Shown here: in pieces, positions 16,928 to 21,264 of the stretch
How positions within the stretch are numbered: position 1 is the first letter of the stretch
Layout: every line of letters starts with the position of its first letter
From: Desulfuromonadales bacterium
Lineage (GTDB): Bacteria > Desulfobacterota > Desulfuromonadia > Desulfuromonadales > BM103
DNA length: 64,000 bases
Assembly: GCA_030145195.1 (NCBI GenBank)
Contig: JAQYVY010000003.1
Coordinates: forward strand, 1-64,000
Reading direction: 5' to 3'
Notes under the pieces: generated by a model
Database searches by the model: none
Seen by the model: the letters and a program-made list of their open reading frames with translations, nothing else
What the model was told of the DNA's origin: nothing
Made by a program: the position numbers and the translations under genes

Positions 16928-17197
16928 ATGCCCCTGGGACTAAAAAAACGTGATTTTCTTCTGATCGGCATTGCCATTCTGATTCTGGCTTTTTTGCTAC
17001 AGGCCCCGCCGGAATCAACCAGTCGGGTGCCGTTTGATGACGACCACAAACAATATTACGACATCGTCAAGAAGCAAGGGAAAAAGGCTGCAGAAAAATT
17101 CTGTGAAGAGTGCCACAACCCGGACACGGTCCCCTTTCCTGAAGGCCATCCGGCAAAGTACCGCTGCCTCTTCTGCCACAAAATGCAGCCGTCTTAA
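16928..17197 (+). CDS. Membrane-anchored diheme c-type cytochrome
   Basis: An 89-residue protein with an uncleaved-looking N-terminal helix (residues 10-25, LLIGIAILILAFLL) and a periplasmic part with two heme motifs, CEECHNPD and CLFCHKMQPS, the second close to the C-terminus. The size and short spacing between hemes suggest an electron shuttle tethered to the inner membrane. The start at 16928 is preceded by AAGAGGTTGAT. Its likely partner is the membrane protein immediately upstream. No terminal oxidase or reductase is adjacent, so its pathway is unknown. Confidence 0.8.
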   Translation: MPLGLKKRDFLLIGIAILILAFLLQAPPESTSRVPFDDDHKQYYDIVKKQGKKAAEKFCEECHNPDTVPFPEGHPAKYRCLFCHKMQPS

Positions 17198-17650: not shown

Positions 17651-18346
17651 TCAGAGCCCACGTACAATGACCCGGTCTACATATTGTCGGGCAATATCAG
17701 CAAAAGACTCAACCTGCCCAGAGGAAAAAGGGGTCTGCTCACGGGAATCTTCTGACAAGGCATACTCGGGGTGGTACTGCTGCAACGACCAGAGTGGAGC
17801 ACCGACGATTCGTTCACCCAGCTGCCTGACGATCTCCTCGTCAACCCATCCCGGCACACAGGTGGTACGAAATTCAAGCTCGACCGATGCTTTCAAACCG
17901 AGACGTACGGTTTCGAGAAGCGCGGCGGGGTTGACCGGAGCAGGATGCAGCTCGGGGTATCGCTCGAAAGCCGTTTTTAAATCGATGGCGAGATAATCGA
18001 TCAACTCACCATCCAGGGCCTGCGCGACAACGTCTGGTGCGAGACCATTAGTGTCCAGCTTGACTAACAGACCCAAGCCCTTAACCTGTTCAAGAAAAGC
18101 GATCAATCCGGGGTTCAAGGTCGGTTCGCCACCGGAAACCACGACACCATCAATAAAGGAGCGGCGACCGGCAAGATCGTCCAGCAGAGCCGCAACCGCC
18201 AAGTCAGGATAGCCTTCGGGCTCCAGGACCAGAGCTGGGTTATGGCAAAAAGGGCAGGTTAAATTACACCCGCCCCAAAAAACCAGAGATGCGATACGCC
18301 CGGGGAAATCGAGCAGACTCGTCCCCTGGAAACCTTTTATGCCCAT
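17651..18346 (-). CDS. nrdG: Anaerobic ribonucleotide reductase activase (radical SAM)
   Basis: A 231-residue radical-SAM enzyme. The cluster motif CNLTCPFCH (CX3CX2C) is at about residues 27-35, with VVSGGEPTLN and later SAM-binding strands behind it. It belongs to the anaerobic ribonucleoside-triphosphate reductase activating protein group, whose role is to generate the glycyl radical on NrdD using S-adenosylmethionine. It lies 81 bases after the 45-codon glycyl-radical gene and is transcribed in the same direction, completing an nrdD, radical-tail, nrdG order. Its length matches the YjjW/NrdG2-like activases more than the short E. coli NrdG (154 residues). Confidence 0.88.
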   Translation of the reverse strand: MGIKGFQGTSLLDFPGRIASLVFWGGCNLTCPFCHNPALVLEPEGYPDLAVAALLDDLAGRRSFIDGVVVSGGEPTLNPGLIAFLEQVKGLGLLVKLDTNGLAPDVVAQALDGELIDYLAIDLKTAFERYPELHPAPVNPAALLETVRLGLKASVELEFRTTCVPGWVDEEIVRQLGERIVGAPLWSLQQYHPEYALSEDSREQTPFSSGQVESFADIARQYVDRVIVRGL

Positions 18347-18427: not shown

Positions 18428-18565
18428 TTACTTACCTTGATCTACCACGTATTCCTGGCGATCCTTGAACTCTTCCTTTTTACCCTTGTTCCATTGTTGG
18501 ACCGGGCGGAAGAACCCACAGACGCGTGAATAGACTTCAGTTCTTGCACTACATTTGGTTGACAT
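18428..18565 (-). CDS. Stand-alone glycyl-radical subunit of class III ribonucleotide reductase
   Basis: A 45-codon gene with its own AGGAG six to seven bases before ATG. The product contains TEVYSRVCGFFRPVQQW followed by NKGKKEEFKDR, which matches the glycyl-radical segment that normally ends NrdD; the predicted radical glycine is G17. The larger upstream gene ends at residue 662 with an incomplete zinc-site-like CPEHG...CPHVH stretch and lacks this segment, so the radical tail is a separate polypeptide. Cys5 (STKCSARTEV) sits where a zinc-ligand cysteine would lie in an unsplit protein. The 45-base gap to the upstream stop and the dedicated ribosome site argue against sequencing error. The pairing with NrdD is inference from sequence complementarity. 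Confidence 0.85.
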   Translation of the reverse strand: MSTKCSARTEVYSRVCGFFRPVQQWNKGKKEEFKDRQEYVVDQGK

Positions 18566-18610
18566 AACAACTCCTAAATAATTTCTGCACTCAGCACTCA
18601 AGCACCACGA

Positions 18611-20599
18611 TCAAGCCGCCTGGCCTTCATGAACATGCGGACAGGCAAAGTGTTCACCCGAGATGTAACCGTGCTCGGGACAAATGGTAAAGGTCGGGCT
18701 GATAGTGAAATACGGCAGGTGGAAATTTTCGGCAATGCGTCGCACCATCAGACGTGCACTCCGCCAGTCATCCAGTCTTTCGCCGAGGAACCCATGAAAA
18801 ACCGTTCCGCCAGTGTAAAGCGTCTGCAAGCTGTCCTGGTGTGTCAGGGCTTCAAAGATGTCATCCGTAGAACTGACCGGTAGCTGGGTTGAATTGGTAT
18901 AGTAGGGTTCGGCATCGCCTGCCGTGACGATGTCTGCATAGAGCGCCCGGTCGGCGCGTGCCAGACGAAAGCTGGTGCCTTCGGCCGGGGTGGCCTCGAG
19001 ATTGTAAAGATGTCCGGTTTCTTCCTGGTAAGCTTCAAGCTGGCTACGCATAAACTGCAGAGTTCGCACTGCCAGGCTCTTGCCTTCAGAGGTCTCGATC
19101 CCTTTTCCGATCAGATTAAGCATCGCCTCATTCATGCCAAGCAAGCCGATGGTCGAAAAATGATTATCCCAGTAGCGACCGCTACGTTCACGAATACCCT
19201 GAAGGTAATAACGACTGTACGGATAAAGCCCCTCCTCGGTCAGTCGCTCCAGTTGCTTGCGCTTGATTTCGAAAGATTCGTAGGCCATGCGCATCAGATC
19301 CGAGATCCTGGCGAAGAAACCATCAACATCTTCAGCCTGGTAAGCCGCACGGGGCAGGTTAAGCGTGACCACCCCGATCGAACCCGTCAGCGGGTTGGAG
19401 CCGAACAAGCCGCCGCCACGTCGACGCAATTCTCGATTGTCGAGCCGCAGGCGACAGCACATGGAACGAGCATCTTCTGGATCCATGTCAGAATTGATAA
19501 AATTACTGAAATAGGGAATGCCATACTTGGCAGTCATCTCCCATATCGGCTGGAAGCGCGGACTGTCCCAATCGAGTTCCTTGGTAATATTGACGGTCGG
19601 AATCGGGAAAGAGAAAATTCTCCCGGAGGCGTCGCCGTCCATCATCACCTCACAGAAGGCTCGATTAAACAGGTCCATCTCATTCTGGAACTCGCTGTAG
19701 GTGGCGTCCATCAACTTGCCGCCAATGATGACAGCATCCTGACCAATATCGCGCGGGGCCAAAAGATCGAGAGTGATATTGGTGAACGGGGTCTGGAAGC
19801 CGACACGGGTCGGCACGTTCATGTTGAAGATGAATTCCTGCATCGACTGACGAACCTCCCGGAAGGTCAGTCCGTCGTAACGAATGAAGGGCGCAAGCAA
19901 GGTATCAAAATTGGAAAAAGCCTGGGCACCCGCAGCTTCGCCTTGCAAAGTATAAAAGAAGTTGACGACCTGACCGAGGGCGGTACGGAAATGTTTGGGT
20001 GGGGCGCTCTGAATCTTACCGTAGGCCCCGCTGAAACCCTTAAGAAGGAGGTCTTTGAGATCCCAGCCGCAACAGTAAACCGAAAGCATACCGAGGTCAT
20101 GAATATGGAAATCACCGTCGCGATGGGCATCGGCGACGTACCGAGGGTAAATCTTGTTCAACCAATAGTTACTGGTAATATTGGCCGCAATATGGTTATT
20201 GAGCCCTTGTAAGGAATAACCCATATTGGCGTTCTCGTTGACCCGCCAGTCCTCCTGGGTGAGATAGGAATCCATCGATTCGATCGATTCCTTGATAAAC
20301 TCTTTAGTCTCGCGCAGTGCGGCATGTTGTTGCCGATAGAGGATGAAGGCTTTAGCGGTCTTGGCATGACCATTCTCAATGAGAATTTTTTCAACCAGAT
20401 CCTGGACATTCTCAACGGTCGGAATGCGCCCATCCTTGTAAATAACCTCAAGGATACCAACAACTTGCCGCCCGATACCGGCAACTTGATCCATATCGGT
20501 GCCACCAACGGCCTTAACCGTCTTCTGAATGGCAGAAACAATATTATCTACCTGAAAGGCGACAAGCCGCCCATCCCGCTTACGAATAAATTCCAACAC
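18611..20599 (-). CDS. nrdD: Anaerobic ribonucleoside-triphosphate reductase, large catalytic part
   Basis: A 662-residue class III ribonucleotide reductase making deoxynucleotides without oxygen. An N-terminal ATP-cone (residues 1-95, FIRKRDGRLVAFQ) senses dATP/ATP. The catalytic ten-stranded barrel follows, with conserved segments such as GLNNHIAANITSNYWL, FHIHDLGMLSVYCCGWDL, RVGFQTPFTNITLD and SNPLTGSIGVVTLNLPR. The C-terminus reaches the zinc-site region (CPEHGYISGEHFACPH) but stops before the glycyl-radical loop, which is encoded by the next gene. The GTG start has a GGGGGAGG site six bases upstream. Two NrdR boxes upstream suggest repression by NrdR. Confidence 0.92.
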   Translation of the reverse strand: MLEFIRKRDGRLVAFQVDNIVSAIQKTVKAVGGTDMDQVAGIGRQVVGILEVIYKDGRIPTVENVQDLVEKILIENGHAKTAKAFILYRQQHAALRETKEFIKESIESMDSYLTQEDWRVNENANMGYSLQGLNNHIAANITSNYWLNKIYPRYVADAHRDGDFHIHDLGMLSVYCCGWDLKDLLLKGFSGAYGKIQSAPPKHFRTALGQVVNFFYTLQGEAAGAQAFSNFDTLLAPFIRYDGLTFREVRQSMQEFIFNMNVPTRVGFQTPFTNITLDLLAPRDIGQDAVIIGGKLMDATYSEFQNEMDLFNRAFCEVMMDGDASGRIFSFPIPTVNITKELDWDSPRFQPIWEMTAKYGIPYFSNFINSDMDPEDARSMCCRLRLDNRELRRRGGGLFGSNPLTGSIGVVTLNLPRAAYQAEDVDGFFARISDLMRMAYESFEIKRKQLERLTEEGLYPYSRYYLQGIRERSGRYWDNHFSTIGLLGMNEAMLNLIGKGIETSEGKSLAVRTLQFMRSQLEAYQEETGHLYNLEATPAEGTSFRLARADRALYADIVTAGDAEPYYTNSTQLPVSSTDDIFEALTHQDSLQTLYTGGTVFHGFLGERLDDWRSARLMVRRIAENFHLPYFTISPTFTICPEHGYISGEHFACPHVHEGQAA

Positions 20600-20668: not shown

Positions 20669-20717
20669 ACACAACATATAGACAAAACTTAGCAGTTTTT
20701 GCACTATATATTGTGCA
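20669..20717. promoter_or_regulatory. Tandem NrdR boxes upstream of nrdD
   Basis: Two sites resemble the NrdR consensus ACACWATATATWGTGT: ACACAACATATAGACA at 20669-20684 and the near-perfect palindrome GCACTATATATTGTGC at 20701-20716. Their centres are 32 bases apart, about three helical turns, the usual arrangement for cooperative NrdR binding. They lie 70-120 bases upstream of the nrdD start and also in front of the divergent nikR gene. Confidence 0.8.
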
Positions 20718-20838
20718 AAAACCGGTGGACAGCCTGTGGATGAAATTTTTCAAAGGTTGTTAAACCAGCAAGATTCTTGACCCTTGCGAAATCCTCATGC
20801 TAAACCTTCGCCATAGATTGCTTCTGAGAGAGGACACC

Positions 20839-21264
20839 ATGACTGAACTTGCCCGTTTCGGAATTTCCATCGACCCACGCCTGCTGAACAAATTTGATCA
20901 ACTGATATCCGACAAGGGTTATGATAACCGTTCCGAAGCAATTCGCGACATGATTCGCAACGCTCTGGTCGAAGAGCAGATCGACAAAGCCGACTCGACT
21001 CCTACCGTCGGCACGGTCACTCTGGTTTACGACCATCACACTCGGGACCTTTCAGACAAACTCACCGAACACCAGCATTCACATCACGATGCCATCGTCT
21101 CTGCCCTGCACGTCCACCTTGATGCGCACCACTGCCTCGAAGTTGTCGTCGTGCGCGGCACCGCCGTCCAGGTCAAACGCCTGGCCGATGAGTTGATCGG
21201 CACCAAAGGGGTCAAGCATGGGAAGTTGGTTTTAACAACCACTGGAGAGGGGTTGGGAGCGTAA
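20839..21264 (+). CDS. nikR: Nickel-responsive transcriptional regulator NikR
   Basis: A 141-residue protein with an N-terminal ribbon-helix-helix DNA-binding domain ([16 protein letters not shown], then [14 protein letters not shown]) and a C-terminal ACT-like nickel-binding domain. High-affinity nickel ligands are visible in HQHSHHD (about residue 76-80) and in LDAHHCLEV, which supplies His and Cys ligands. The ATG at 20839 follows GAGAGAGG. NikR represses nickel uptake when nickel is plentiful; no nickel transporter gene lies in this window. It is divergent from nrdD. Family assignment is strong. Confidence 0.93.

Follow-up and report, generated by a model that had tools for sequence, protein, structure and literature searches.

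Which chain carries the glycyl radical of a class III ribonucleotide reductase when the catalytic chain ends before the radical loop? The question is raised by a 64,000-nt stretch (hereafter the window) of a Desulfuromonadales genome (GCA_030145195.1, contig JAQYVY010000003.1, positions 1 to 64,000). Here the gene for NrdD stops at its zinc site, and is followed by a gene of 45 codons that carries the radical-glycine motif and then by nrdG. In published accounts, as far as the excerpts at hand go, class III reductases bear the glycyl radical on the catalytic chain. The reading preferred here, at a probability of roughly 0.83, is that of a class III ribonucleotide reductase made of two chains, one of them an exchangeable radical subunit. 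The features on which it turns are the following.

18611-20599, minus strand: nrdD large chain with class III barrel, 662 aa plus TGA stop, GTG start, C-terminal end TICPEHGYISGEHFACPHVHEGQAA
residues 4-93 of the large chain, minus strand: ATP-cone (PF03477), a profile match
19454-19459, minus strand: Cys381/Cys382 of the large chain, in the finger-loop MCCRL
18641-18682, minus strand: zinc ligands 1-3 of the large chain, Cys640 (18680-18682), His643 (18671-18673) and Cys653 (18641-18643)
18611-18613, minus strand: TGA stop of the large chain, sharing the frame of the small gene here but not in most relatives
18571-18575, minus strand: AGGAG Shine-Dalgarno site of the small gene
18431-18565, minus strand: small glycyl-radical gene, 45 aa, ATG start, protein MSTKCSARTEVYSRVCGFFRPVQQWNKGKKEEFKDRQEYVVDQGK
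18551-18553, minus strand: Cys5 of the small chain, fourth zinc ligand position
18515-18517, minus strand: Gly17 of the small chain, radical glycine position, inside the motif by which the 44 pairs described below were selected
17651-18346, minus strand: nrdG, radical-SAM activase of the NrdG2 type, 231 aa (TIGR02495, 162.4 bits against a cut-off of 131.15)

Two genes of one family

The large chain passes the profiles for class III NrdD (PF13597, 597.1 bits, cut-off 26.2; TIGR02487, 513 bits, cut-off 326.35). In hmmscan the PF13597 match stops at profile position 526 on the large chain and restarts on the small chain at 526-562, so that the two are contiguous parts of one family; TIGR02487 and NF006126, the latter with 1019 bits on the large chain, agree. 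The large chain holds the active-site cysteines (MCCRL, Cys381/382; YCCGW, Cys176/177), and C176, C381 and C382 are invariant across the 62 rows of the alignment A4 described below. The roles of the finger-loop and strand cysteines, and of the zinc ligands, are taken to be those of the NrdD family. The radical-glycine loop, in the NrdD family RVxGYxRP near the C terminus of the same chain, is absent from the large chain and is carried by the separate chain of 45 aa. Up to E 0.1, Pfam gives this small protein a single match, to the end of NRDD; the protein falls outside the glycyl-radical family of the pyruvate formate-lyase (PFL) type, while sharing with GrcA/YfiD that it is separate from the catalytic chain and bears a radical-glycine motif. 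The first-pass annotation, made from the letters alone, had described an NrdD of 662 aa, a radical-loop protein of 45 aa lying 45 nt further on with its own AGGAG and ATG, and NrdG next; coordinates and profiles confirm this layout, including the 45-nt gap.

In the proposed enzyme, ATP-cone, catalytic barrel, finger loop for the thiyl radical and the zinc ligands Cys640, His643 and Cys653 would all come from the large chain. The small chain of 45 aa would bring the loop that bears the radical glycine, Gly17, and probably Cys5 as fourth zinc ligand. Both chains would be translated separately from one operon and join at the broken zinc knuckle, with the radical loop entering the barrel in trans. 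Within this complex the small chain would receive its radical from NrdG. The PFL activase has similarly been proposed to act on YfiD bound to cleaved PFL (excerpt of PMC8683613). Oxygen cleavage at the radical glycine would leave just 45 residues to replace. The gene structure, its conservation, the invariance of Cys5 and the homology of the small chain to the NrdD radical domain are established; that the chains assemble, bind zinc, take up the radical on the small chain once it is bound and catalyse the reaction is inferred.

A detail that the first-pass annotation overlooked is that the two open reading frames (ORFs) of the window share one frame, with a single TGA between them and no further in-frame stop in the gap. 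Readthrough, recoding or a one-base error therefore needed testing, and this was done on 44 pairs, the window's own and 43 from loci L069-L168, all picked by the motif VCGFFRP of their small chains; in L099 and L111 the start is unclear or the large chain incomplete. The frame offset between the genes is 0, 1 or 2 in 17, 8 and 19 pairs, respectively, and the gaps range from -17 to 251 nt, several of them with repeats. A Shine-Dalgarno-like site precedes the small gene in all 44 pairs, and NrdG lies downstream of it in all 44. Within a 38-codon core of the small gene, median nonsynonymous divergence (pN) is 0.118 against a synonymous divergence (pS) of 0.845, with pN below pS in 946/946 comparisons; pS is here close to saturation, and residues 10-21, among them Gly17, are predetermined by the motifs used to pick and to anchor the sequences. 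The split also occurs in one-contig genomes (G024, G033, G034, G040, G044, G053), which excludes an assembly join.

The large and small ORFs are two genes. Recoding of the TGA, whether as selenocysteine or by readthrough, is rejected since frames and stop codons vary among relatives, and an assembly error or pseudogene by the one-contig genomes, the order-wide matches and the purifying selection. That a sequencing error, a pseudogene or stop-codon recoding disguises one continuous gene, as the shared frame and lone TGA of the window might suggest, has next to no probability in the face of the varying offsets, the gaps of up to 251 nt, the 44 Shine-Dalgarno-like sites, the split one-contig genomes and the strong purifying selection on the small gene. 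Sequencing or assembly error was also what the first-pass annotation had named as fatal to its reading, and it is contradicted by the same one-contig genomes and by frames that differ across the 44 pairs. Its idea of a separate radical subunit gains support from the conservation, from NrdG downstream in 44/44 and from the window's genome having no second NrdD: the small chain has one match there, and the locus is the genome's only PF13597 match.

The zinc site and the predicted fold

Continuous relatives have the zinc and radical pattern CPxHGYxxGEHxxCPxCxxx(T/C)EVYSRV. Cys5 of the small chain aligns to the second Cys of CPxC, at equal spacing to EVYSR. Counted from the third ligand, continuous NrdDs have this Cys at C+3 in 51/57 rows, a figure that includes some near-identical rows and three in which the pattern was misread; of the six rows lacking it (L178, L213, L224, L230, L239, L245), five have a His one place on. 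In the split pairs the large chain keeps C-H-C in 43/44, the exception being L137 with its frameshifted tail. Among the 43 readable large chains C+3 is never Cys and shows 12 residue types, whereas in 44/44 small chains the fourth-ligand position is Cys. His at C+3 or C+4 is missing from nine of the 43 large chains, and in two pairs (L097, L148) the large tail has neither His nor Cys past the third ligand and the small-chain Cys is kept. In L137 the frameshift at the large-chain end has removed the zinc motif and left the small gene intact, by sequencing error or decay.

The cross-chain Cys recurs in two Diapherotrites pairs (L200, L204), whose large chains have neither Cys nor His at C+3 and C+4, and L204 stands on a distant, well-supported branch of the tree. 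A continuous relative of L204, L239, carries an insert between ligands three and four and is a possible intermediate. In 21 split pairs of other lineages the large chain has CPxC in 12 and CPxPH in 9, and the small-chain Cys is found in 0/21.

AlphaFold2 was given the window protein read through the TGA, with an alignment (A4) of split and continuous homologues. The resulting model has a mean predicted local distance difference test score (pLDDT) of 86.2, with 79-87 for the blocks at 681-720, the small-chain core, and about 48 for the artificial linker. It superposes on 8p2s_B with Z 35.1, a root-mean-square deviation of 2.9 and 563 aligned residues (model 94-718 on 85-735), radical domain included, and on 4u3e_B (Z 32.6) through the radical domain. 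This shows that the small chain is compatible with the NrdD fold, but not that it docks.

Several points weigh against the two-chain reading, and they are gathered here. In the large tail, His occurs at C+3 in 19 chains and at C+4 in 19, and at either place in 34/43, the CPHVH of the window included, so that most pairs could complete their zinc site inside the large chain. The 44 pairs form one clade, which reduces the cross-chain Cys from 44 cases to about two independent events. In the A4 model, residues 386-401 behind the finger loop fall below a pLDDT of 50. When split-type rows alone were supplied (A3, 40 rows), AlphaFold2 neither folded nor docked the small part (pLDDT <50), and the range of the A3 model matched by the 21 top-listed class III structures ends at residues 626-663. 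The good A4 model thus borrows in part from continuous homologues and cannot serve as separate evidence of docking. Also present in the genome is a 741-aa reductase gene of class I/II type, probably a class II-like NrdJ as judged by its C-terminal cysteines, and with such a gene present NrdD need not be essential.

A rule of strict complementarity, in which a fourth ligand in the large chain and the Cys of the small chain would replace each other, was rejected, because His stands at C+3 or C+4 in 34/43 of the large tails. These candidate His residues are also the reason why the confidence in the zinc proposal, and in the reading overall, was lowered. A two-chain enzyme might instead bind zinc wholly in the large chain through the tail His, with Cys5 left in another role or as a relic. 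Besides those His residues, CPxPH in 9/21 split pairs of other lineages and the C+4 His of some continuous NrdDs favour this alternative; against it, Cys5 is invariant in 44/44 and the His is not, nine of the 43 pairs lack it, and two have no His or Cys in the tail at all. It is rather unlikely. A zinc site common to the two chains, with Cys5 as fourth ligand, is the reasonably probable arrangement from the aligned positions. The first-pass suggestion that Cys5 completes the site is thereby upheld by the invariance of the residue and qualified by the alternative His ligand in most pairs.

Occurrence of the split in and beyond the order

The small chain was matched in 51/58 genomes of a first sample and in 69 of the 75 same-order genomes listed (its own included in both), in answer to the suggestion that relatives be searched for an NrdD lacking the loop beside a short ORF. 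None of the best matches in the 69 order genomes lies in a frame of NrdD length; the longest is 432 aa, and the frames of 432, 268 and 259 aa, on inspection, are all split. A continuous NrdD of about 700 residues in relatives, which the first-pass annotation had set in advance as the case against itself, is thus absent from the 69 best matches, and the order's only continuous one is a 739-aa NrdD in G070, a second NrdD beside the split one in the same genome. The six genomes without a match comprise five that have no NrdD and one in which NrdD is cut at a contig end. Nine order genomes from both samples lack the small gene; eight of these are without any PF13597 match, and in G030 the match stops about 9 bases before the end of the locus, which, from the locus length, is read as an NrdD cut by the contig end. 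Large and small chain come and go together in the sampled genomes. Three loci at contig ends (L081, L177, L235) are uninformative.

Outside the order, most of the matches listed in a phylum sample lie in frames of about 700 aa. The same sample holds three further split types: f22 (with members of f18 and f39), f52/f87 and f37. The f52 small protein of G224 matches Thermodesulfobacterium thermophilum (100% over 48 residues). A wider set of genome loci, the best 80 of at least 572 confirmed and ranked by likeness to the split-type query, was labelled by script as 40 split, 31 continuous, 5 without a core and 4 unparsed; the ratio of 40 to 31 is not a frequency, because the loci were ranked by similarity to a split-type query. 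By these labels the split loci fall under about a dozen bacterial and archaeal phylum-level names, eight of them with at least two loci (Thermodesulfobacteriota, Elusimicrobiota, Spirochaetota, Fermentibacterota, Chloroflexota, Campylobacterota, Caldifarciminota, Diapherotrites). Woesearchaeota, Microcaldota, Aminicenantes and TA06 have a single split locus each, and metagenome assembly errors could be among these. Cultured carriers of a split pair are Thermodesulfobacterium thermophilum, T. hveragerdense and Thermodesulfatator autotrophicus (L175, 690 + 57 aa).

A tree was built from 66 NrdD cores, anchored on the window sequence, with the zinc and radical region removed. Its rows were thinned from 156 at 78% identity within label; left out were 10 loci that were too short or gave no clean cut, rows below 600 residues among the earlier loci, L080 and L096 with a masked or broken frame, and L233, L076, L194, L074 and L071 with less than 75% coverage. 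Split and continuous states change at least 15 times on this tree, well-supported branches alone force 11 changes, and either state forms one clade in 0/200 bootstrap trees. Gains of the split and fusions are indistinguishable on it. The split type of the window is one clade (100/98), joined to the continuous NrdD L100 at 96/87.

Some of the loci show peculiarities of their own. A Thermodesulfobacterium large chain of 1004 aa (L169:962-3976) contains a LAGLIDADG-type insert, probably an intein. In two f37 loci (L078, L079) the genes overlap, with the small start 46 and 31 nt upstream of the large gene's end; the end of the large chain and the start of the small one look like charged helices, which might pair as a coiled coil. 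Three f58 loci (L086, L087, L093) have frames of 113-142 aa whose NrdD-like radical end is of another kind (TRVTGYYSKVGSWNNGKRAELKDRK, for example), and near these three no NrdD of the window's type was found.

Radical domains without a partner and the possible use of a detachable part

Several order genomes that hold the split pair have extra copies of the small gene without a nearby NrdD (L101-L108). For seven of these stand-alone loci one neighbouring protein each was scanned. The neighbours belong to the Mu Gam, DNA transposition and endolysin families in L101, L107 and L108, and to phrog_286, of unknown function, in L103 and L106; phrog_286 is also present in the viral records L281 and L257. 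The neighbour is a pyrophosphatase in L104, and L105 has no clear phage protein beside it. The prophage-like copy in L107 is identical to that in the viral record L281.

Viral contigs gave 296 confirmed stretches, and in 68 of the best 80 no NrdD core is present (e.g. L281, L307, L257, L262, L288, L290). When the whole records of these 68 were searched, PF13597 was found only by its last part, from position 490 on, in 68/68 (50 + 18); 39 of the 68 are at least 30 kb long, their completeness is not stated, and in fragments the core could be missing by chance. As controls, 8 of the 12 core-bearing viral records and MT835493 were treated alike, and the core was found in each. The radical glycine is present in 64/64 readable viral copies, under a search pattern that favours it. 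A search of the 68 core-less stretches at E 1e-4 gave no relative of the nrdG in the window. Among deposited phage records, 3/50,697 match the split-type query at E 1e-3: MT835493 with a whole NrdD, ANMV-1, and an Oceanotoga phage with a class III large subunit by annotation. Cartridge-only genes are thus rare among deposited phages at this threshold and are seen mainly in uncultured viruses. A PHROGs scan of four small proteins gave weak family matches for three (E 0.0002-0.002) and none for the fourth.

Short ORFs of the radical domain are, we assume, commonly annotated as NrdD. AJP62049.1 of ANMV-1 (L332:3680-4114) is an instance: this protein of 144 residues consists only of an N-part with CxxC...CxxC and the radical domain. 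The archaeal virus ANMV-1 was reported to be apparently complete and to encode an oxygen-sensitive ribonucleotide reductase (PMC4372165, excerpt). Two Patescibacteria proteins (L221:4115-4430, L225:490-871) likewise combine zinc-ribbon-like CxxC pairs with a radical domain, and are encoded directly behind a continuous NrdD, an arrangement that would be expected of a true spare part.

The most surprising part of these results is the cartridge-only viral genes. There is about an even chance that the radical domain is an exchangeable cartridge, which cells have detached repeatedly and which phages and archaeal viruses with such genes load onto the host NrdD to be radicalised by the host NrdG, so that deoxynucleotide synthesis is sustained, or oxygen-cleaved parts are replaced, during infection. 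For the cell, the benefit of the split is most likely that an oxygen-cleaved part is cheap to replace and exchangeable, because the splitting recurs and stand-alone copies occur in viral records.

A related explanation is that the small protein is mainly a spare part like YfiD, repairing oxygen-cleaved NrdD, and that the split followed as the spare became permanent. The copies away from nrdD in genomes with a split pair, the zinc-ribbon and radical-domain proteins behind continuous NrdDs (L221, L225) and the 68 viral records favour it, and spare parts for other glycyl radical enzymes have been regarded as possible, if unproven (excerpt of PMC8683613). However, the large chain of this order has no radical loop to repair, and the adjacent small chain must therefore be constitutive. 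Repair as the main role is thus doubtful. The first-pass comparison with a replaceable YfiD-like part is in the same position: it is plausible, and strengthened by the stand-alone domains of viral records and those that follow continuous NrdDs, with repair a putative function; the small chain would, however, be obligatory here.

Neutral gene fission, with a linker that tolerates the break and splits that persist without benefit, is less likely again. The linker zone from the third zinc ligand to the radical loop, where the breaks lie, is variable, so fission there may be cheap, and switching between split and continuous forms is frequent; but the split extends through the whole of the sampled order and turns up again in many phyla, and repeated viral records with the small piece only are not predicted by neutral fission. 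Regulated assembly, in which the radical subunit would serve as an on/off switch that joins with ATP and is released with dATP, is improbable: an ATP-cone is present and dATP disorders the whole radical domain of the Prevotella copri NrdD (excerpt of PMC11226230), so that class III regulation could accommodate a loosely held domain, whereas in S. thermophilus NrdD the position of the radical domain is independent of the cone (excerpt of PMC12662201).

The proposed two-chain enzyme shares barrel, finger loop, zinc site, radical loop and NrdG with the continuous NrdDs of T4 (1H7A), T. maritima (4U3E/4COI), P. copri (8P23) and S. thermophilus (9D3X), and the ATP-cone with the last two; unlike in these, the radical domain of the window enzyme, and probably its fourth zinc ligand too, is a separate gene product. 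The likeness to YfiD/GrcA and T4 Y06I is that of a small, separate glycyl-radical protein completing a large enzyme, of which a phage version exists (PMC8683613, as excerpted). The part in the window belongs to the NrdD family and has 45 aa, whereas YfiD/GrcA is of the PFL family and about 14 kDa; and YfiD rescues a PFL that is complete until oxygen cleaves it, while the large chain here never has a radical loop. Another two-chain reductase, NrdJa/NrdJb, differs in being class II and cobalamin-dependent, and its second chain presumably has no radical glycine. Its likeness lies in the division itself, the second chain having a C-terminal zinc-finger domain (excerpt of PMC9669993). T4-like phages also have nrdD in pieces: the excerpt of PMC3653736 counts six nrdD cases, and tells of nrdD interrupted by a group I intron in the T-even phages and of a phiAS4 nrdD in three fragments whose origin is unknown. 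That account of split genes, as excerpted, has no fixed two-gene nrdD of a cellular lineage, and is silent on whether the last phiAS4 fragment is the radical domain.

In the open-access literature no earlier description of a separate NrdD radical subunit, cellular or viral, was found, and none is contained in the excerpts of PMC3019208, PMC9531940, PMC9669993, PMC4390871, PMC11194802, PMC11528403, PMC8683613, PMC11226230, PMC12662201 and PMC3653736. Spare parts are validated only for pyruvate formate-lyase (PMC8683613, in excerpt); the two-chain reading, if true, would extend the idea from PFL to an enzyme of DNA precursors, with many natural candidates. A stable two-chain version would make radical installation, domain docking and catalysis separable for study, with a radical part that can be made, labelled and mutated as a protein of 45 residues. 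The cartridge-only viral genes suggest viral support of DNA-precursor synthesis in the host, and would change the annotation of such genes.

Upstream of nrdD are sites that resemble the NrdR box, whose consensus we take to be ACACWATATATWGTGT:

20701-20716, no strand assigned: probable NrdR box GCACTATATATTGTGC, 2 mismatches to the consensus, the only site in the window with 2 or fewer
20669-20684, no strand assigned: possible second NrdR box, weak, 4 mismatches, its start 32 bp from that of the other

Sites with four mismatches number 8 in the window on both strands. Divergent from nrdD is a gene for a NikR-type nickel regulator (20797-21264, plus strand). On the other side of the locus, an 89-aa frame (16928-17197, plus strand) that starts with a hydrophobic stretch and carries CxxCH twice (CEECH, CLFCH) is probably a small c-type cytochrome.

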